Virus record (IMG/VR): IMGVR_UViG_3300003885_000049
Span: 1 to 21,492 of that record
Reading direction: 5' to 3' (one strand)
DNA: 21,492 bases
From: a virus
This document shows, in pieces, positions 2,923 to 21,492 of the stretch. Below the pieces are notes generated by a model. It did not search any database, had not been told where the DNA came from, and saw only the letters and a list, made by a program, of their open reading frames with translations. Position numbers and translations under genes: made by a program. Position 1 is the first letter of the stretch. Each line of letters opens with the position of its first letter.

Positions 2923-3120
2923 TCAGACTGACGACGGCCTATCGTCCGGGCCATTCAATGGCCTCAATTCGGATCGATAGACGTTAAACTTTTTGTCGGC
3001 CTCAATTCCGATCTTCGCGACTCCATCCCGACTATCAACTACCATGATTTTTATGACGTCATCGGAATCGGGCATTTCGATGACGAAGTACTCGGATACT
3101 CCCCTTGATAAAACTAGCAT
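2923..3120 (-). CDS. csrA: CsrA-like RNA-binding translational regulator
   Basis: 65 residues, the normal CsrA length. It opens MLVLSRGVSEYFVI like cellular CsrA (MLxLxR at the N-terminus, with Leu4 and Arg6 kept). It continues IKIMVVDSRDGVAKIGIEAD, equivalent to the strand before the conserved IGI-A-PK segment, and ends with FNVYRSEL, which keeps the arginine corresponding to Arg44 of the RNA-binding VHREE motif. CsrA dimers bind GGA in hairpin loops near ribosome binding sites. The start overlaps the upstream stop by one base (TAATG), implying coupled translation. A phage copy could control phage mRNAs or redirect host carbon metabolism; the target is unknown. The residues between strands 1 and 2 (EMPDSDD) are slightly longer than in E. 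coli CsrA. Confidence 0.85.
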   Translation of the reverse strand: MLVLSRGVSEYFVIEMPDSDDVIKIMVVDSRDGVAKIGIEADKKFNVYRSELRPLNGPDDRPSSV

Positions 3121-4433: not shown

Positions 4434-4471
4434 CCTAGCCGGTTAGGCTTAAGAAAGCCCAGCCGGCTGGG
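4434..4471 (-). terminator. Twin 14-bp palindromes after the last structural gene; probable terminator
   Basis: CCCAGCCGGCTGGG (4458-4471) is a perfect palindrome. On the minus strand it is followed at once by CTTTCTT, as in a Rho-independent terminator. Ten bases further on, CCTAGCCGGTTAGG (4434-4447) is a second, nearly palindromic copy. Together they follow the consensus CCYAGCCGGYTRGG. They lie 36 bp after the second capsid gene. The T-run is interrupted, so a paired operator is an alternative. Confidence 0.5.
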
Positions 4472-4506: not shown

Positions 4507-5400
4507 CTACACGGTTGTCATCTTGACCAATGCACCCGTGGAATTTGGATCATGGTATCCACCGTCCGACCGATAGGTAGCCAGGATGTCCACTTGATGC
4601 CTAAACGCAGTCATCTCAGTAAGGACGGTAAGGTTGATAACGCCGGCATCATGCACCAGGTATCGATCCAGGGCCCCGAATACTAGATCTGTCGAAACCC
4701 GGTTCGAATAAATCGGATACCCGCGTAAATGCGGACGGCCATCGATCATTTCGAATTGGGTAGTGAGACTTTTCACATCCGCAATCATCGCGGGTGGGGC
4801 CACCCACCCACTAGTCTCGTAATAATCCGGGTCAATAGCGGATTCGAGCAGAGCCAAGTCGTCAGCTTCAACCTTCGGACCAAGCACGCCCAGAGCCGTA
4901 GCAACCGCCTGAATCCCAGTCGGCTTACTCGCTCCGTCTCCCTCAATGAAATGCCGATCGGTCCCTTTGCGTATTCGAGCCCCCAAAATAGCGCCTAAGT
5001 GCCCCATCACACCTGCATCAAACCGATCATCCCAGAGCTGTAAGGATGCCCTGAGAACAGTTGAGTACAAGTAAGGCTTAGTCTTCAGGACGTCGTAGGT
5101 AAGGTCAGCAGGGACCACCGCGGCATGTTCAGCTATGATCTGGGCTTCGATGAAGTCATCGGCCATTGGCCAGTCATGTTCAACCCCGCTGTCCGTCGAA
5201 ACCAGCGTAGCCCAGTGGCGAACCCCCGTGCTTGAGAGCGCCAGGTTGAAACTGGTGATCAGAGGCTCGTTAACCAGGAATCCGCCCGCGGAATCAGGGG
5301 CGACCCCCAATTGCCTCTTGATCTGCAAGGTTCGCACACCGCTTCCCTTTACAAATTCGTCCACATCAACGCTACGTCCGAAAATGTCACGGTCCTGCAT
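4507..5400 (-). CDS. Second HK97-fold major-capsid-like protein, no scaffold domain
   Basis: 297 residues from the ATG at 5400 (AGGA about ten bases upstream, 13 bp after the previous stop). Hallmarks of the HK97 capsid core are clear: LGVAPDSAGGFLVNEPL at residue 31, matching LGTAPDSLGGFTVPEGL at residue 174 of the first capsid protein; FIEGDGASKPTGI, the usual GDG-P-GI loop; GYPIYSNRVS; and the C-terminal FGALDRYLVHD and RHQVDILATYRSDGG strands. It lacks the coiled N-terminal delta domain and has no adjacent protease. It is the last gene of the structural unit, far from portal and protease. It may be a vertex or minor capsid subunit like T4 gp24; that is inference. Confidence 0.85.
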   Translation of the reverse strand: MQDRDIFGRSVDVDEFVKGSGVRTLQIKRQLGVAPDSAGGFLVNEPLITSFNLALSSTGVRHWATLVSTDSGVEHDWPMADDFIEAQIIAEHAAVVPADLTYDVLKTKPYLYSTVLRASLQLWDDRFDAGVMGHLGAILGARIRKGTDRHFIEGDGASKPTGIQAVATALGVLGPKVEADDLALLESAIDPDYYETSGWVAPPAMIADVKSLTTQFEMIDGRPHLRGYPIYSNRVSTDLVFGALDRYLVHDAGVINLTVLTEMTAFRHQVDILATYRSDGGYHDPNSTGALVKMTTV

Positions 5401-5413
5401 ATTGGTTTTGTTC

Positions 5414-6964
5414 CTAGTCGTCGCAAGGATTTTGAGAGGGGGCCGTGGTTGGCACGAAAGCGGCTCCCTTGGGGTCAACGTAATCAACACAATTGCCCCC
5501 GGGGTCCAAGTCAGTCGGGGTGCACGCAATCAATAGCCCATTCTCGAATTGCAGCTGGAGATTGTCGGCGCTGCCTGCATCTCCAACAACGATTGTTGCC
5601 TCAACCCCGGGTTGAGTCCACGCCAATTCAACAACATCGTCGGCTGCGCCTGTTTGGAAAACAAACAAAAGAGAGCCTCCCGTTCCCGGTGACTTCGGAC
5701 GCAGCCAAGTTTGTTCCCCCGGCGCGTCCCTGTTAGCAAATGCCCATCCACCACCGCCCGGATCATCTGCCTCGTTTCCAGAGATTCGGAGGAAAGGACT
5801 ACCCGCGCCGGCTGCATTGATTCCCCCAATCTGAACATTGTGATTCAGAACTGGGCCCGATGTCCACGATAGGCCCGTAGCATCGGAGTGAATGACCGAG
5901 TTTGGGAGTTCGGATGGGTCAAGCTGAATAAGGAAGTCGTCGCCACCACCGTCCCCTAGCATCCGCAATAACGTATCTCGATTGGCGATAATCTTTTGGG
6001 CCTTAGCGCCTGTCGCCGGCTGGTCATAAGCACCACTTGACCCCTTCCCGGCCGTAATCACACACTGTTCATCCACGTTCACACCCGCATCTGCGCCGGC
6101 CGGCCGATGCGGTTCGATAATGTTATAGACCCCCGTCGACTCGTCATAGCTGGCAATAACCGATTCCCCGGCCTTCAGGCCGACATGGTCAGGGATCACC
6201 GCAACCACCATGGCTGAACCCGGGGAGACACCTTGCCACGCTGAAACAACGGTTGCGGCAACCGCAGTGCCTTGACTGACGATATCAGCCCCTAAAACCG
6301 CAACGATCATCTCAGCTTGTTCTTGCAGTTCGATAATCTGAAATGGGCAAGTAGACTCTTGCTGCTTGTGTCTAAATGCCGAGCCCCGATATCCGGTCAA
6401 CCCCTTGAACTTCCCAATCGAATCTTGAACCTGGAAAACCGAGGGAGCATCCCCACTGCAGGCCAGCCTGTTCGCACTCGCTGTGCCACCGATCGGTAGC
6501 GATTCCGCTAATGCGAAGATCACAATTTCAACGCCAGGCGGGGCCGCTTTGCGCCCTACCCACGCCATATCGGCATGATCCTGAAATACTTCAACGATAT
6601 CGTCCGCTTTCCAGTCCTCGGAATTCGACGGATTGAAAACGCGAATGTCGACGAGGTCTAAAATAGTGGCCTCATTAAACGTGCCCCCGCCCACTTCCCC
6701 GCGGGAGAAGCCAAGCATCTTTGCGAGTCCGCTAGTTAAGACTTTTCCGTCAACGGATTTGTCAACGTTTTCACTTAGGCGGGCAAACCGAAACCCGAAA
6801 GTTGATTGGGATCGTTCGGCCTGTTCAGGAACGTCGACCAGCGGCATGTAGGCATTGATGCGGGCAATGAATTCGTTGTATTGCGTTTCAGGGCCGGTTG
6901 CAATTTGTTGCACGGAATCACCGTGCTCCCCCGTTGCGTACCTCCCGTGGAAACCACTATTCAT
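5414..6964 (-). CDS. Probable tail-tip or virion protein
   Basis: 516 residues. The start at 6964 shares one base with the upstream stop (TGATG). The N-terminus up to residue ~190 mixes helices and strands. The rest is Gly/Ala/Asp-rich beta sequence (for example VVSAWQGVSPGS, VVAVIPDHVGLKAGESV, GGGGWAFANRD) as in tail or fibre proteins. Short Cys-containing stretches appear near the end (CTPTDLDPGGNCVDYVDP). No enzymatic motif is seen. Its place after the tape measure and another tail gene suggests a distal tail component, and it directly precedes the second capsid gene. Function is by context only. Confidence 0.75.
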   Translation of the reverse strand: MNSGFHGRYATGEHGDSVQQIATGPETQYNEFIARINAYMPLVDVPEQAERSQSTFGFRFARLSENVDKSVDGKVLTSGLAKMLGFSRGEVGGGTFNEATILDLVDIRVFNPSNSEDWKADDIVEVFQDHADMAWVGRKAAPPGVEIVIFALAESLPIGGTASANRLACSGDAPSVFQVQDSIGKFKGLTGYRGSAFRHKQQESTCPFQIIELQEQAEMIVAVLGADIVSQGTAVAATVVSAWQGVSPGSAMVVAVIPDHVGLKAGESVIASYDESTGVYNIIEPHRPAGADAGVNVDEQCVITAGKGSSGAYDQPATGAKAQKIIANRDTLLRMLGDGGGDDFLIQLDPSELPNSVIHSDATGLSWTSGPVLNHNVQIGGINAAGAGSPFLRISGNEADDPGGGGWAFANRDAPGEQTWLRPKSPGTGGSLLFVFQTGAADDVVELAWTQPGVEATIVVGDAGSADNLQLQFENGLLIACTPTDLDPGGNCVDYVDPKGAAFVPTTAPSQNPCDD

Positions 6965-8001
6965 CAGTCAAATATTCCTAGGTCGTTATGGTTTTTCGCT
7001 TCAATGATTTCGTACGGGAGGTAAACCGGATCTCCCGTGTTTATATTTCCATCTTTCAGTAGAGTGTTGCCATTCATTTTCTGCCCAGTGAGTGGGTCCA
7101 TTATCGATATGCGTCCAGGCCCCCCGCTAAACAATGCGTCATAATCAGAAATGACTCCTGACCCGTACGAATTCTTTGCGCCTTCATAAGCGGCCCGTTC
7201 CAGGCCAATATCAATTTGGCTTATGTTCCATCCGTCGGGCCAAACGTCACGTTCCCTGATCCAAAATTCGTGACGAACAAGCCATCGCCACTTACTAATT
7301 ACGGGATCGATATCGGCAATGGCGCCAGGATAGTAGGACCGGCTGCCCGTAATCGCCACACAGCGAACATTGTCTGGTAACCAATTCCCTAGGAACCCGT
7401 TGCGAGCGATTCGAAGGTCGGTAACATTACGCGTGTTTTCGTACCCCTCGAAAAAACTCTGATCAAAAGTTTTCATTATCTTTTCAATAACCAAAACCCA
7501 ATAAGATGCCTCGTAATTAGGCTGGGGCATAACAAGACTTCCAGCCGAATTCGTCAATGGCCCCTTAGTCCCTGTCGCGCGAGTAGTCCGGATCAGGGCA
7601 TTCGTCTGCCAGTGTCTTACTTCATGTTCCGATAGGTTTTTAGCCTGGACGATTCCGGTCGCCACGAGTCGATTTGTCATCCAAATTTTGTCATCCCAAG
7701 TTTCGGGATCGGGGGACGGTTCACCCACTGGGTAGTAAGTCACAGTCCCTCGCCAACTCAATGTTGCCAGTGGTTTATGTTTCTCAATCCGAAACCCCCG
7801 GGCAAAGACCTGTGGGTCACTATCGCTCCCGAAATCGTACGGGTCTCCAAGTTTTGGAAAGTCCATGTGCTTGCGAATATCGGTAGGCCCAGTTAAGGGG
7901 CTATCTGTCTTAATTAGATACTCAACCGTGGCAACATCTGCGCCATTGAGGGACGTTTGCCCCCAGTTCATACCGGACTCGCGTACGCTAACAACTGCCA
8001 T
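6964..8001 (-). CDS. Probable tail-tip/baseplate-type protein
   Basis: 345 residues from the ATG at 8001, which shares one base with the upstream stop (TGATG) and has AGGA about ten bases upstream; the frame is open 15 codons further but that extension overlaps the upstream gene. The N-terminal half contains an ATVEYLIKTDSPLTG segment, then LATLSWRGTVTYYPVG, typical of phage proteins that follow the tape measure. No membrane segment or catalytic motif is visible. It is coupled to genes on both sides. A structural role is likely; the precise part is unknown. Confidence 0.75.
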   Translation of the reverse strand: MAVVSVRESGMNWGQTSLNGADVATVEYLIKTDSPLTGPTDIRKHMDFPKLGDPYDFGSDSDPQVFARGFRIEKHKPLATLSWRGTVTYYPVGEPSPDPETWDDKIWMTNRLVATGIVQAKNLSEHEVRHWQTNALIRTTRATGTKGPLTNSAGSLVMPQPNYEASYWVLVIEKIMKTFDQSFFEGYENTRNVTDLRIARNGFLGNWLPDNVRCVAITGSRSYYPGAIADIDPVISKWRWLVRHEFWIRERDVWPDGWNISQIDIGLERAAYEGAKNSYGSGVISDYDALFSGGPGRISIMDPLTGQKMNGNTLLKDGNINTGDPVYLPYEIIEAKNHNDLGIFD

Positions 8002-8984
8002 CAAAAAGTAATCCTGCGGATAAGGAAGTTTCGGACGCCGGTCCAATTGGAAGGTGGGGCAGCGGTTGGGTCCACCGTAGGCAATGGAGCCTTGGCTGCT
8101 TCTTGCGCAGCTCGAAGTTCCTCCATCTGGATAGCTTCACGGTTCAATCGTAATTGCTGTTCGATAACAAAGGAATTGAATCCGCCCCGCTGAACACGAG
8201 GGGCGGGGGCGGCTATGGATCGCAACAAAAGGCTGAGTTGCCCACCCGCTGAACCGCCGTTTTGAGGCCCCATCAGTCCGGTTTCAGCCGGCGCAGATTC
8301 CTCATCACCACCGTAAACAAAATCCAGTAGCCTGTCTAAGTTTGACGATGCGCTAAACATGTCCTTGAACTTGCCCGACCGCTGCCGAATTTGATCGGCT
8401 TTTGCGTCGGATATTTGACTGACAGGTAATCGGTCGGGCAGCCGCTGGAATTGGGTTCTCAAGAGGTCTGTTTGCGAAGCCCCGCCAAACAATCGATTGA
8501 CCGTCTCCCTTTGAAACGGATTTCGAGAGGATAGGACACGGCTGATTGAATCGGTTCGCTGTTCAAGGGACAACTTACCGAAATCACGACTAAAGCCAAG
8601 GTCAGCCACTTGCGTAGCTGCTTGGCGGTCAAACTGCGCCCGCATAACTAGATCTCCGACGCGATTCACCGCCCCCTCAACATCTGCAATATTGATACCT
8701 TGCTGTCGACCCACCTGGTCAAGGCCACGAATTTCACCGATCGAAACTCCAGCCCTCCTTGCCCGATCCTCTTGCTGGGCAATTTGAGCAACCTCATTGC
8801 TGAAAATGTTGAAAGCACTTTTTCGCACCCGGTCGGTATTGCCCTTGATTTGACCGAGCACCCCGATTGTGTCCCCCACCTCCCCGGCCGCGGCAACCGC
8901 AACCCTAGCACTTGCGCCCCGGGCCGCCATCCGGCCGGCTACACCACGCCCGGCGGCTACTACCGGCGCCAGAAGCTGTGCCAT
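8001..8984 (-). CDS. Candidate short tape measure protein
   Basis: 327 residues, largely helical. An Ala/Gly/Arg-rich N-terminus (about residues 8-35) is followed by long charged helical stretches (RVRKSAFNIFSNEVAQIAQQ) and a C-terminal helix RLNREAIQMEELRAAQEAAK. It follows the tail-tube and chaperone genes and precedes tail-tip genes, exactly where a tape measure lies. At about 1.5 angstroms per residue its maximum helical span would be near 49 nm, so the tail would be short. No peptidase or membrane domain is evident. If the particle is not a siphovirus it could be an internal or ejection protein. The start at 8984 follows the chaperone stop by three bases, with GGAG about nine bases upstream. 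Confidence 0.6.
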   Translation of the reverse strand: MAQLLAPVVAAGRGVAGRMAARGASARVAVAAAGEVGDTIGVLGQIKGNTDRVRKSAFNIFSNEVAQIAQQEDRARRAGVSIGEIRGLDQVGRQQGINIADVEGAVNRVGDLVMRAQFDRQAATQVADLGFSRDFGKLSLEQRTDSISRVLSSRNPFQRETVNRLFGGASQTDLLRTQFQRLPDRLPVSQISDAKADQIRQRSGKFKDMFSASSNLDRLLDFVYGGDEESAPAETGLMGPQNGGSAGGQLSLLLRSIAAPAPRVQRGGFNSFVIEQQLRLNREAIQMEELRAAQEAAKAPLPTVDPTAAPPSNWTGVRNFLIRRITF

Positions 8985-8987
8985 GGT

Positions 8988-9320
8988 TTATTTCTCCGAT
9001 TTCGCATTCATTAATTGTGAGTGTTGCTCAGGAGTCAGCCAATCCGGATTCTCACTTTGCATTTGCTCGACAGGATCCACTGGATCAACCAGGGGAACAA
9101 ACGAGTTAATGGCGGCCAAAATAGCAACAAAATGGTGGTACGGGAGTGAGCTGATTCCGTGGGACACAAGACATTGCGAAACCAGAAATCGATTGGCCGC
9201 CAATCCGCTAAGCTGAATGAAAACGCAGACCGTCTCAACCATCGGGTAAGCAATTTCGTAGTCCGTCCCGTCAAGTTCGATTGTTACGTCGGGGGGGCGT
9301 ACGTCGGTTGATCGTTCCAT
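8988..9320 (-). CDS. Probable tail assembly chaperone
   Basis: 110 residues from the ATG at 9320, chosen because GGAGGT lies nine bases upstream; a TTG two codons earlier is too close to that site. The sequence VTIELDGTDYEIAYPMVETV followed by a helical domain and a PEQMQ-like charged end is typical of tail chaperones encoded before the tape measure. It overlaps the tail-tube gene by 37 nt. No slippery heptamer or frameshift extension was seen, so it appears to be a single-form chaperone. Confidence 0.6.
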   Translation of the reverse strand: MERSTDVRPPDVTIELDGTDYEIAYPMVETVCVFIQLSGLAANRFLVSQCLVSHGISSLPYHHFVAILAAINSFVPLVDPVDPVEQMQSENPDWLTPEQHSQLMNAKSEK

Positions 9321-9676
9321 ATCCAAGTGACCTCCAATACTTTCGGGATCCCCGCTTGCATCTGCGGGAATGTAAGCAATAACACTTGCGCTTGCCCGAT
9401 CATTGTAGCGGGCGCCGCCTCTCCCACATTGAGAGGATATGTAATTGTAAGGACAGCCGGGTCTCCTTTAGGGGGCAGCGCAGCCAAACGGTCTAACTCG
9501 AATCGAGCAACGACCGGGTCCCATAACTCTTGGCCCTCCGATTCCTGACTTACGTACGCCTGATCCAAGTAGGGCTTGAGTAGCCTGTTTTGGGTCATTC
9601 CCCCGCCCGCTGAAATGACCAAGGGACGGGCAATGAATCCGTTAAAGTCAATTGATGCGCCGACACCTGAGCTCAT
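9284..9676 (-). CDS. Probable tail tube (major tail) protein
   Basis: 130 residues, mainly beta strands (VLTITYPLNVGEAAPATMIGQ, VLEVTWIWND). It starts at 9676 with an ATGA overlap to the tail-terminator gene and has GAGGTGG upstream. Position between tail terminator and chaperone is that of the tail tube in siphophages. It is shorter than most tube proteins (commonly 140-250 residues), so the call is contextual; a second tail-completion protein is the main alternative. Confidence 0.55.
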   Translation of the reverse strand: MSSGVGASIDFNGFIARPLVISAGGGMTQNRLLKPYLDQAYVSQESEGQELWDPVVARFELDRLAALPPKGDPAVLTITYPLNVGEAAPATMIGQAQVLLLTFPQMQAGIPKVLEVTWIWNDQPTYAPPT

Positions 9677-11141: not shown

Positions 11142-12545
11142 TCAAGCGGCCGCTTGCAATGCGTACTTAACGGGCCCCGACCCCGCATCAATGAGCCGAC
11201 AATCGGAACGCATGAATCCCAGGAACACAACTTGATGCTGCAGGGCTCGAATTTCGTCTAGTCGACGAATCACCATTCCCGGGCCGGCCACATCATGAAT
11301 TTTGAACTTGTTCAACTGGCCATAAAGCAAGGGACGGCCAGTAAGCAAAGTAGTATCAAGCGAATTATTGAGAAAGTACGGGTCTCCATCAATCGTCGAT
11401 GGTTCGCCGAACGCTAAGGAAGGCTGCCATAGCAAGCGCCCATCGGTTTCAGCGCCGCCTAGCCCCCGAATCCCGCCTAGCACGGTATCGTGCATGAGAA
11501 ACCCGTGTCCGATCTGTCGGTAAGCCCGATCAACCGAATACTTCAAGTCGAGCAAGTCATTCGCTGTCGGTTTGTTTGAGCCACTTAGTACAACCGTTGA
11601 ATCCAGGGCAGCGGTTGCGATCCCTTCAGGGACATCGCCCACACCTGAACCCGTTGCGAATTCGTCTGATTGAATCCTGGAAATCCGTTCGGCAACCAAC
11701 CGAGTAACAAGTGCATCCATATTCTCGTTGGAATCTTGCATCAGCTGAATTGAGACAGGAATGTACTTTGAAGAGTACAATTTCGGTTTGGTTAGGACTT
11801 GACCAAATGTGATGTCGCCTTGATTGGCCTCTATATTTTCATCGACGCGTTCACCTCTCTCATCGGAGTCGTTAACCGTCGGGTGCGGCTTCTCCCGTCC
11901 GTCTGGGCTGGCGATAACCGTTGCATAATTTCGGCCCGTGTTAAAAAATGCTAGAGCGATATCGATTTGCTCCATCAGCCCCTCAGGAACGGTAAATCCA
12001 CCGAGGCTATCGGGAGCAGTGCCTAAGTCTCGACGAATTGCAAACTCCTCGAAAGCCTTACGCGTAATTCGCCCTTCTGGCAACTGTGGACCGTTAAAGG
12101 TCGAAATAGAACGAGTAGGAAACCGTAGCTCGATTTCGTTTTGGTGTTCCAACCCGCAAGACGCACGGGCACTACGTTCTGCCACTGAGGCATGTTTGTT
12201 TCGTAGGAATCCATTGAGAGCCCGGACAATCCTCATTTCTGATTCGCTCTCAGCACACGATTCATCAACCGTCTGGTGAACTGTCGCTTGGGCAGACGAG
12301 AACCGATCCGATAACTCCTCTTGCCGATCGAAAGCTACTGCCCGTTTGATTGCCAATTCCTCCGTAGTAACCTCTGCGTCAATTGCATCGAATTCGGCGT
12401 TGATCTCTTGGAATCGACCTTCCCTGTCGTCGCTCCATTCACGCTCCTTGTTCTGTTTCTGCAACTCTTTCCACTCCGGATAGAGCGCCTGCTTCTTCTC
12501 AACTAGGGTCTCGATTTTGGCGTTCGGGGAGGTCACTTCAGACAT
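11142..12545 (-). CDS. Major capsid protein, HK97 fold, with N-terminal delta domain
   Basis: 467 residues. Residues 1-~100 are a charged coiled coil (IETLVEKKQALYPEWKELQK and following), the scaffold-like delta domain normally cut away by the adjacent protease. The core begins near residue 160, with LGTAPDSLGGFTVPEGL at 174-190, KPKLYSSKYIPVSIQL, FATGSGVGDVPEGIA (the GDG-type loop, here GSG), GDPYFLNNSL, LYGQLNKFKIHD, and HQVVFLGFMRSDCRL. It forms the icosahedral shell. The start at 12545 overlaps the protease by 13 nt and has AAAGGAT upstream. A paralogue without the delta domain is encoded at 4507-5400. Confidence 0.92.
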   Translation of the reverse strand: MSEVTSPNAKIETLVEKKQALYPEWKELQKQNKEREWSDDREGRFQEINAEFDAIDAEVTTEELAIKRAVAFDRQEELSDRFSSAQATVHQTVDESCAESESEMRIVRALNGFLRNKHASVAERSARASCGLEHQNEIELRFPTRSISTFNGPQLPEGRITRKAFEEFAIRRDLGTAPDSLGGFTVPEGLMEQIDIALAFFNTGRNYATVIASPDGREKPHPTVNDSDERGERVDENIEANQGDITFGQVLTKPKLYSSKYIPVSIQLMQDSNENMDALVTRLVAERISRIQSDEFATGSGVGDVPEGIATAALDSTVVLSGSNKPTANDLLDLKYSVDRAYRQIGHGFLMHDTVLGGIRGLGGAETDGRLLWQPSLAFGEPSTIDGDPYFLNNSLDTTLLTGRPLLYGQLNKFKIHDVAGPGMVIRRLDEIRALQHQVVFLGFMRSDCRLIDAGSGPVKYALQAAA

Positions 12546-13186
12546 TGGGTAAAAATCCTTTCGCGAAAAATAGCATCACGCTCATCTGATTCGAGCAAGT
12601 TAAAGTCTAGCAAGATAGGGCAATCTGGTTGTTGTTGATGTCGAGTTATAGCGTTCGTACCGCTATAGGCTGCGTCCGAAACGGGCCCCAATTCAGTTAC
12701 TGATAGCTCAGTAACTGTCAGAACCCGGGCCCCCGATTCAATGCTAGTCCGATACTTCTTGACGTTTGCGTCAATTGACGATCCACGGACTAGGCCGGCC
12801 GCGATTTTGGCCGCAACGTAAAGGTGGTCAGGATCATTCGCGTTGATGGGAATGGAGTATTTCAGGCCGAGGTCGTCAGTCGATACCTCCAGCGTTCCGT
12901 TCCGAGTATCGCCCAGTTTGCGGTTGGAATCATGATTGAAGTAGCTCACTATGTTGCGATTGATTCCGAAGCCATCCGTAGCCAAAAAGGCATCAAATGC
13001 CCCCGCGGCAATCCGCTCGACATAGCCCTTGCTTCGTCGCATGTCGAATTGGGTCCCCTCCAGATCTTGGCGATTGAAAAACACCGATGCGTAGCCTTCA
13101 ATCCTGGTTGGCTGGCCGTTCTGTCTTCGAATCGTCAGGGTTGGCGGGGACGCTAATTGATTGGTCTGGATTCGCTGGTGAATCAT
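12533..13186 (-). CDS. Prohead protease, HK97-type (serine)
   Basis: 217 residues. The catalytic set of the family can be placed: His85 in SYFNHD, Ser136 or Ser137 in RGSSIDAN, and an acidic residue in the VTELSVTELGPVSDAAY strand (about 158-174). RIEGYASVFFNR near residue 28 is the usual first strand. The start at 13186 has GGAAGG at about eight bases. The first ~30 codons overlap the portal C-terminus by 89 nt in another frame. It cleaves the delta domain of the capsid protein during prohead maturation. Confidence 0.9.
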   Translation of the reverse strand: MIHQRIQTNQLASPPTLTIRRQNGQPTRIEGYASVFFNRQDLEGTQFDMRRSKGYVERIAAGAFDAFLATDGFGINRNIVSYFNHDSNRKLGDTRNGTLEVSTDDLGLKYSIPINANDPDHLYVAAKIAAGLVRGSSIDANVKKYRTSIESGARVLTVTELSVTELGPVSDAAYSGTNAITRHQQQPDCPILLDFNLLESDERDAIFRERIFTQCLK

Positions 13187-17427: not shown

Positions 17428-19152
17428 TCAAGGTCCCTTATTGTTTGCGGTTTGGAAAAACACCCATTGCATCGATGCGCCGACAGCCAATGAGTCGAGT
17501 TGGATTACAATACGATAGCTTTGCCCAGCTACTAACGCTGCCACGGAAGGAACCGAGCCCACGTAACGATTAGATCCACTTCCGTCGGTCAACATCGGCC
17601 CATTAGTGACTTCAATCCCTTCGCATGTCGATATAGTAAACGTCCCTACCCCATCGACAACATCTACTCCCGATTCCGGGTCAGTTACAGACTCTAAGAT
17701 AATCGAACTATCAGAGCCAGGAACGAGTAATAACATGATAGTAGCCTCCATTGATGGCAAGACTTGAACGGGTGATTCCATTGCTGGAAGAACGAGAATG
17801 ACACCCTCTAATGCGCCGTAGGTATCGTCAATAACGAATGGACGTATTCGGTCGCCAACAACAAGCGTTTCGAAAAGGTCGACGCTGTAAAAGGCATCTA
17901 CGTCAATCAAGGAACCTAAGGTAAACCCGTCTAGGACTTCTGCGGAAAACGTAGCCTGGTGTTCAGCTTCGTCATCGAAAACAAAACCGTCCGTGACAGT
18001 CCCACTAAACACCCCGCTGGCCTCGATTCGATCGCCTAAAATCAACCCGTCGTCAATCTCTTGCGATTTCGACAGAAACGACAGAACCCTATCCGAAAGA
18101 ATAAGCTTATCGGATACGGCAACTTCTAAATCTCCAGTCGCGATGACCCGGGCAGTGAACCTAAAACCATCAATAACGCTTGCCGAAAATGTTGTGGTAG
18201 GTTCAACCCGATCACCTAAGATGATCCCGTCGGCGACTTTAACGTTTACATCCTCTATGACTCGGTCTCCCAAGATGATCCCATCCACGATATGTGCATG
18301 GGCATTGACCCGGGCAAACCCATCATCACCAAGAATAAGCCCCTCGGTGATTATTTCGGGCGGTAAGGAAGGCGAAAGAAAAATGGTAGGGTCAGGCTTG
18401 CTATGCCAAGGCAAAGCGCCTTTCCACAAAAGCTGTATTTCGTGGTCGCCCAAGTAACGATTTCGCCAGAACATTTGAGGGCCGATAGCATTATCGCGGC
18501 CACCAGGTGAAGCTACCGATCCCCCACCTCCTATATCCAGCGACGTGCTATGGGTGGGATTTCGCCTTAATATGGTCCCCGTGGCCGCATAGGTCCCTAT
18601 GCGAATACCATCGGCCCATGTTTCGAGCGACCCGTTCTTGTATCGCATTACGAACAATCGCCAAACGTTACGCTTGGCGGGGTATAGATAATAGGCGTTC
18701 TCTGTCCAGCCGGTATTGACCGACGTCGCGAGAATAAACGAATACCAGTTGAATCCGTTATATCGCGTAAGGCTTAACGAAAAGGTATTGTCAAAGTGAA
18801 TGAGGAAAAAGAGGGATTCACTATCAGAAGTACTACGGTTATGGCGACACCAACCCGCAGCGGTGAATTCAGTATCTCCCGTTTGCGGCGCATCAAGTAC
18901 GCCGTTAGTCGGAAGGTAATCGTACTTAATCCGACTTGTAAAAGGTGTCTGAAGGGTCCTAGCTTCAATCTCACCGCCTTGACCAAACGGACCGAATGTT
19001 GGTTTAGCATTCCAAGAGTTAACAGTGCTATTGTTGAGTATCGGGTTAAGAGGAAACGGCGCCGCCATGAACCATGGCGCGGGGCAGCCGAAAGAAAGTC
19101 CCCGCCATAGTTCGGGATGAAGAGAATTGACCGCGCTTGTCGCAAGCTTCAT
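17428..19152 (-). CDS. Probable tail fibre: LamG lectin domain plus nine 20-residue repeats
   Basis: 574 residues. Residues ~95-245 form a LamG/concanavalin-like domain (FTAAGWCRHNR; RNVWRLFVMRYKNGSLETWADG; a closing RNRYLGDHEIQLLW). Residues 270-436 contain nine repeats spaced mostly 20 residues apart, with consensus DGxILGDRV (starts near 270, 290, 308, 328, 348, 368, 388, 408, 428). The C-terminus from ~470 looks like an Ig-like domain (GTFTISTCEGIEV; GQSYRIVIQLDS). Such proteins bind host surface polysaccharide. The ribosome binding site is weak. It lies in the gene set upstream of terminase, not after the tape measure. Confidence 0.75.
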   Translation of the reverse strand: MKLATSAVNSLHPELWRGLSFGCPAPWFMAAPFPLNPILNNSTVNSWNAKPTFGPFGQGGEIEARTLQTPFTSRIKYDYLPTNGVLDAPQTGDTEFTAAGWCRHNRSTSDSESLFFLIHFDNTFSLSLTRYNGFNWYSFILATSVNTGWTENAYYLYPAKRNVWRLFVMRYKNGSLETWADGIRIGTYAATGTILRRNPTHSTSLDIGGGGSVASPGGRDNAIGPQMFWRNRYLGDHEIQLLWKGALPWHSKPDPTIFLSPSLPPEIITEGLILGDDGFARVNAHAHIVDGIILGDRVIEDVNVKVADGIILGDRVEPTTTFSASVIDGFRFTARVIATGDLEVAVSDKLILSDRVLSFLSKSQEIDDGLILGDRIEASGVFSGTVTDGFVFDDEAEHQATFSAEVLDGFTLGSLIDVDAFYSVDLFETLVVGDRIRPFVIDDTYGALEGVILVLPAMESPVQVLPSMEATIMLLLVPGSDSSIILESVTDPESGVDVVDGVGTFTISTCEGIEVTNGPMLTDGSGSNRYVGSVPSVAALVAGQSYRIVIQLDSLAVGASMQWVFFQTANNKGP

Positions 19153-21374: not shown

Positions 21375-21492
21375 CGTCGCTCTCCTCCAAAATGTCGGAT
21401 AAGACTTTCTTGAACTGTCGGTCGGTATCATCACCGTCGATCGGTTCCCACTGTCGCCGATCGTCATCCCAACGCTCTTGGTTGAGCCATGT
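21367..21492 (-). CDS. C-terminal end of the replication initiator (rest at 1-727)
   Basis: Minus-strand bases 21401-21367 supply the final ten residues of the initiator (LSDILEESDDD, with the first codon split across the join) and its TAA. Bases 21402-21492 repeat the segment already present at 1-91. Read circularly this is one 762-bp gene, not a duplicate. Confidence 0.85.
   Translation of the reverse strand, partial: TWLNQERWDDDRRQWEPIDGDDTDRQFKKVLSDILEESDDD
21402..21492. repeat. Terminal repeat, right copy (circular closure)
   Basis: Exact copy of bases 1-91. Removing one copy gives a 21,401-bp circle in which the initiator gene is intact. Confidence 0.95.

Follow-up and report, generated by a model that had tools for sequence, protein, structure and literature searches.

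A second, predicted HK97-fold capsid protein lacking a delta domain at the end of the late operon of a 21-kb phage genome

In most HK97-type phages, the pentamers and hexamers of the shell are made from a single protein, and phage T4 is the textbook exception. The T4 vertex protein gp24 is a paralogue of gp23 that is present in 55 copies compared with 960 copies of gp23, and its propeptide of 10-20 residues is much shorter than the 65-residue propeptide of gp23 (PMC5694885). A compartment assembled from two HK97-fold components has also been described (PMC12407261).

We analyzed IMG/VR record IMGVR_UViG_3300003885_000049, positions 1-21,492, a viral sequence whose 21,492 bases are together referred to below as the window. 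The plausible genes of this genome lie on the minus strand. The following features are central to the analysis:

1-91 and 21402-21492, plus strand: terminal repeat, exactly identical over 91 bp
12533-13186, minus strand: prohead protease, Peptidase_S78 (PF04586, E 1.4e-20)
11142-12545, minus strand: MCP1, the ordinary major capsid protein with a delta region, 467 aa (PF05065, E 7e-39; TIGR01554 positions 6-378)
5414-6964, minus strand: gene just upstream of CAP2, 516 aa, no known relatives, separated from CAP2 by 13 bp
4507-5400, minus strand: CAP2, the 297-aa second capsid protein of predicted HK97 fold, without a delta domain (PF05065, TIGR01554, structural model)
4458-4471, minus strand: hairpin with a short T-rich tail past the CAP2 stop codon, a candidate operon end

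Because the 91-bp terminal repeat is exact, the window is probably a complete phage genome of ~21.4 kb in a closed assembly, which backs the description of a 21-kb phage in the first-pass annotation. The head genes form an ordinary set by Pfam and PHROG matches (large terminase, portal, S78 protease, and MCP1, with the MCP1 gene adjoining that of its protease) and are followed by a head-tail adaptor and a weak match to a head-closure protein. The subsequent genes without known relatives are, by position, probably tail genes; those at 5414-9676 (minus strand) yielded nothing above threshold in PHROGs, and the two that were tested had no match in the phage collection. The 516-aa product encoded immediately before CAP2 is likewise probably a tail protein, judging from gene order. 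CAP2 is the last gene of this head-and-tail run. The first-pass annotation had placed a structural terminator after it; a hairpin with a T-rich tail is indeed present at 4458-4471 and may mark the operon end, but such sites occur in the window at chance frequency (13 observed compared with 12.4 expected in shuffled sequence). Elsewhere in the genome, a small CsrA-like regulator is encoded at 2923-3120 on the minus strand (PHROG 9500, E 1.1e-8; under the NCBIfam CsrA cut-off), and a 574-aa protein with weak matches to PHROGs of unknown function, encoded at 17428-19152 on the minus strand, contains a repeated DGIILGDRV-like motif. Tandem arrays at 267-395 and 1151-1354, in or near intergenic gaps, consist of 8-, 11-, and ~106-bp units, the last of which contain GCCAT-like 5-bp repeats; a replication origin is one possibility for these arrays.

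The CAP2 open reading frame starts with ATG and runs for 297 codons from 5400 to 4507, beginning 13 bp past the stop codon of the preceding gene. CAP2 is a member of the HK97-fold phage capsid family: residues 39-287 match PF05065 with 71 bits (E 1.4e-19; curated cut-off, 24.2), the TIGR01554 match scores 87.9 bits (E 7e-25; curated cut-off, 27.5), and PHROG 10, 'major head protein', is matched at E 1.1e-14. The similarity of CAP2 to MCP1 is far above chance (BLASTP E 9e-21, 28% identity across 281 columns), and the two proteins share 28-31% identity. The frame is open, all five family-invariant columns are kept, and codon usage is similar to that of the other genes of the genome, so that there is no sign of decay or of foreign DNA in CAP2. 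A frameshift fusion of CAP2 with the preceding gene was considered and provisionally set aside, as the frame 5' of the ATG looks non-coding by eye.

An AlphaFold2 model of CAP2, built from 45 aligned capsids, has a pLDDT of 79.9, with disorder in the first 35 residues. The top-ranking Foldseek match is the capsid of the gene transfer agent RcGTA (E 3.7e-15), and structural alignments give Z scores of 20.2 for the capsid of cf-PICI EcCI2, 20.1 for RcGTA, and 18.4 for HK97. Encapsulins align with Z ~18, and both components of the Family 2B encapsulin with Z 16.5-16.9. The structure prediction called for in the first-pass annotation thus returned the HK97 fold and not a different one. As far as prediction allows, the fold of CAP2 is settled, with the core retained at full length, and the claim of a second HK97-fold capsid beside MCP1 is borne out by both the profile matches and the model (Z 18-20 against the RcGTA, EcCI2, and HK97 capsids).

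The architecture of CAP2 departs from that of MCP1 at the N-terminus and at two internal places. The TIGR01554 alignment starts at profile position 6 in MCP1 and at position 86 in CAP2, with just 12 CAP2 residues ahead of the match. Since profile positions 1-85 are unmatched, CAP2 lacks the delta region, as had been noted from the sequence, and with it the delta (scaffold) domain of a complete HK97-type major capsid protein. The earlier observation that no protease gene adjoins CAP2 also holds, the only S78 protease found being the one at 12533-13186. CAP2 had been said to align with MCP1 from about residue 144 of the latter. This is right as an offset, with residue 1 of CAP2 corresponding to residue 144 of MCP1, but detectable similarity first appears at residue 27 of CAP2, that is, residue 170 of MCP1. 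In the same way, the proposed coincidence of the CAP2 start with the start of a mature capsid protein is approximate, as the LGVAPDS stretch is reached only after ~26-30 residues, which the model shows as disordered. Compared with 44 other capsid cores, CAP2 is missing residues at two nearby places, after 215 and 238, that most of the other cores keep, and alignments with MCP1 show CAP2 to be clearly the shorter of the two proteins at both. From the known layout of the fold, we take the trimmed stretches to belong to the A domain, close to the axis of the capsomer. MCP1 retains 46 of the 70 columns that show strong conservation across the capsid clade, and CAP2 retains 28.

Among all collected capsids, the top match of CAP2 is MCP1 (67.6 bits compared with at most 52 for any other). 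In a tree of 60 capsids, the two are sisters (bootstrap 95, SH-aLRT 96), with a CAP2 branch of 1.85 compared with 0.76 for MCP1 (~2.4x), and when MCP1 was left out, CAP2 was placed in the same clade with a support of 99. The grouping is a meeting of two long branches, and trees holding CAP2 apart from MCP1 are not rejected by the AU test (p 0.078). A count of unusual residues common to the two proteins revealed no enrichment and adds no support for paralogy. Taken together, CAP2 likely arose by duplication of MCP1 within this lineage, although the comparison falls short of proof.

Two capsid genes in one phage are rare, in agreement with the first-pass annotation, which had called a dedicated second capsid unusual in a phage of this size. 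A PF05065 match was found in 45 of 46 related virus records, exactly one in each, so that none of these 45 carries a second capsid, with the caveat that such records may be fragments in which a missing gene is not proof of absence. Matches were present in 50 of 392 Planctomycetota genomes, with no pair inside one prophage-sized stretch; the sole pair on the same contig lies ~5.5 Mb apart. Queried with MCP1, the phage collection gave 347 places in 345 records, and hence at most 2 records with two; queried with CAP2, it gave 152 places across 152 records. The phage records among the matches listed have one capsid match each. No relative was detected when viral contigs were scanned with the individual sequences of CAP2, of MCP1, and of the two genes upstream of CAP2, and a scan with an alignment of the two capsids detected no confirmed one. 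With the terminase as query one distant locus was retrieved, and with the portal two, each carrying one capsid only; CAP2 is absent from these distant relatives. Near relatives of MCP1 are present in Planctomycetota genomes, and no second capsid was found at any locus fetched from them. The nearest terminase relative (L013, 914-5421; 38-40% identity) has a different capsid and an apparently ClpP-type protease, which indicates that the head genes are mosaic among these phages. Short capsid-like reading frames in two Planctomycetota genomes (L196-L198) are single capsids that are not near CAP2. Literature searches of incomplete coverage turned up no report of two HK97 capsids in a small phage; JBD30 was rejected as a precedent because the 'two major capsid proteins' described there are two copies of one protein.

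The reading that we tentatively favor is that CAP2, a diverged copy of MCP1 and the last product of the late run, serves as a minor shell subunit, most plausibly at special sites, for instance the pentameric vertices. Co-assembly with MCP1, perhaps at vertices as for T4 gp24, is the most likely role, at somewhat below even confidence; the vertex position itself we only infer. With no delta (scaffold) domain of its own, CAP2 would rely on MCP1 to assemble the prohead and should require hardly any cleavage or none, and trimming in the putative A-domain stretches would suit a capsomer whose geometry differs. Both the absence of the scaffold domain and the trimming are in keeping with such a subunit, and they are equally in keeping with relaxed constraint, which the retention of only 28 of 70 conserved columns and the longer branch would fit as well. 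The position of CAP2 ~6 kb from the head genes is not what is expected of a shell partner and is neutral or mildly unfavorable, while the lack of a second capsid in related phages counts against a minor subunit. CAP2 could instead be a capsid gene that is left over or was acquired recently, by duplication or by recombination with another phage, and that has no dedicated role in the virion and has yet to be lost. Its fast divergence with loss of conserved residues, its absence from every related record examined, its location at the operon end far from the head genes, and the mosaicism of those genes, with the nearest terminase relative carrying a different protease and capsid, all point this way. 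We nevertheless regard this explanation as rather unlikely, given an intact 297-codon frame that keeps the key residues of a confidently predicted fold in a genome as small as 21 kb, from which idle genes should vanish; 28% identity to MCP1 also implies a long separation unless the gene was acquired elsewhere.

The remaining explanations appear improbable to differing degrees. CAP2 might act as a decoy or interfering subunit, entering the proheads of rival phages or of satellites and ruining them or altering their size. A scaffold-less capsid core could conceivably poison assembly, and CAP2 sits among accessory-like late genes. We consider this reading improbable; CAP2 is nearest to MCP1 of the same phage, so that self-poisoning would be its first risk. 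A shift of CAP2 away from the head, be it to the tail or to an intracellular encapsulin-like compartment or elsewhere, is if anything slightly less probable. Its position after the presumed tail genes, its encapsulin-like size without a delta domain, and the Z ~18 to encapsulins are compatible with such a shift, but CAP2 groups with phage capsids (in a tree that left out encapsulins), and we know of no tail role for the HK97 fold. That CAP2 was joined to the contig from another phage by misassembly is very improbable. The contig is metagenomic and has no relative to confirm its gene order, but the genome is closed by an exact terminal repeat, gene spacing is tight across the junction, G+C content and codon usage are even, and CAP2 finds its best match, MCP1, on the same contig.

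If CAP2 is indeed a minor shell subunit with sites of its own, a T4-like division of labor would exist in a very small phage. Such a two-capsid phage would offer a simple system for studying the specialization of shell subunits after duplication and for testing whether a scaffold-less subunit can enter an HK97-type prohead. Should CAP2 prove functionless, the locus would be a snapshot of capsid gene turnover. The broader proposition, that the shell of a 21-kb tailed phage is made from two HK97-fold proteins with a scaffold-less, trimmed paralogue reserved either for the vertices or for some other set of sites, is more doubtful than the minor-subunit role as such.

Compared with the described systems, CAP2 is like T4 gp24 in being a second HK97-fold protein of shell type besides the main one, a likely paralogue of it, and in having an N-terminal pre-sequence far shorter than that of the main capsid protein (PMC5694885). 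In contrast to T4, a 170-kb myovirus in which gp24 has been located at the vertices, CAP2 belongs to a 21-kb genome, is a candidate vertex protein, and is encoded far from the head genes. CAP2 shares its fold and sequence family (PF05065 / TIGR01554) with HK97 gp5, RcGTA Rcc01687, and the capsid of cf-PICI EcCI2. Unlike HK97-type major capsid proteins, it has neither a delta domain nor an adjoining protease, shows trimming at two sites, and shares its genome with a complete capsid gene. Family 2B encapsulins have shells built of two HK97-fold components (PMC12407261), as is proposed here for CAP2 and MCP1. They are cellular cargo compartments, and an encapsulin is expected as a cellular gene outside a phage module, whereas CAP2 lies in the late operon of a phage genome that encodes terminase, portal, and protease, and its nearest relatives are phage capsids.
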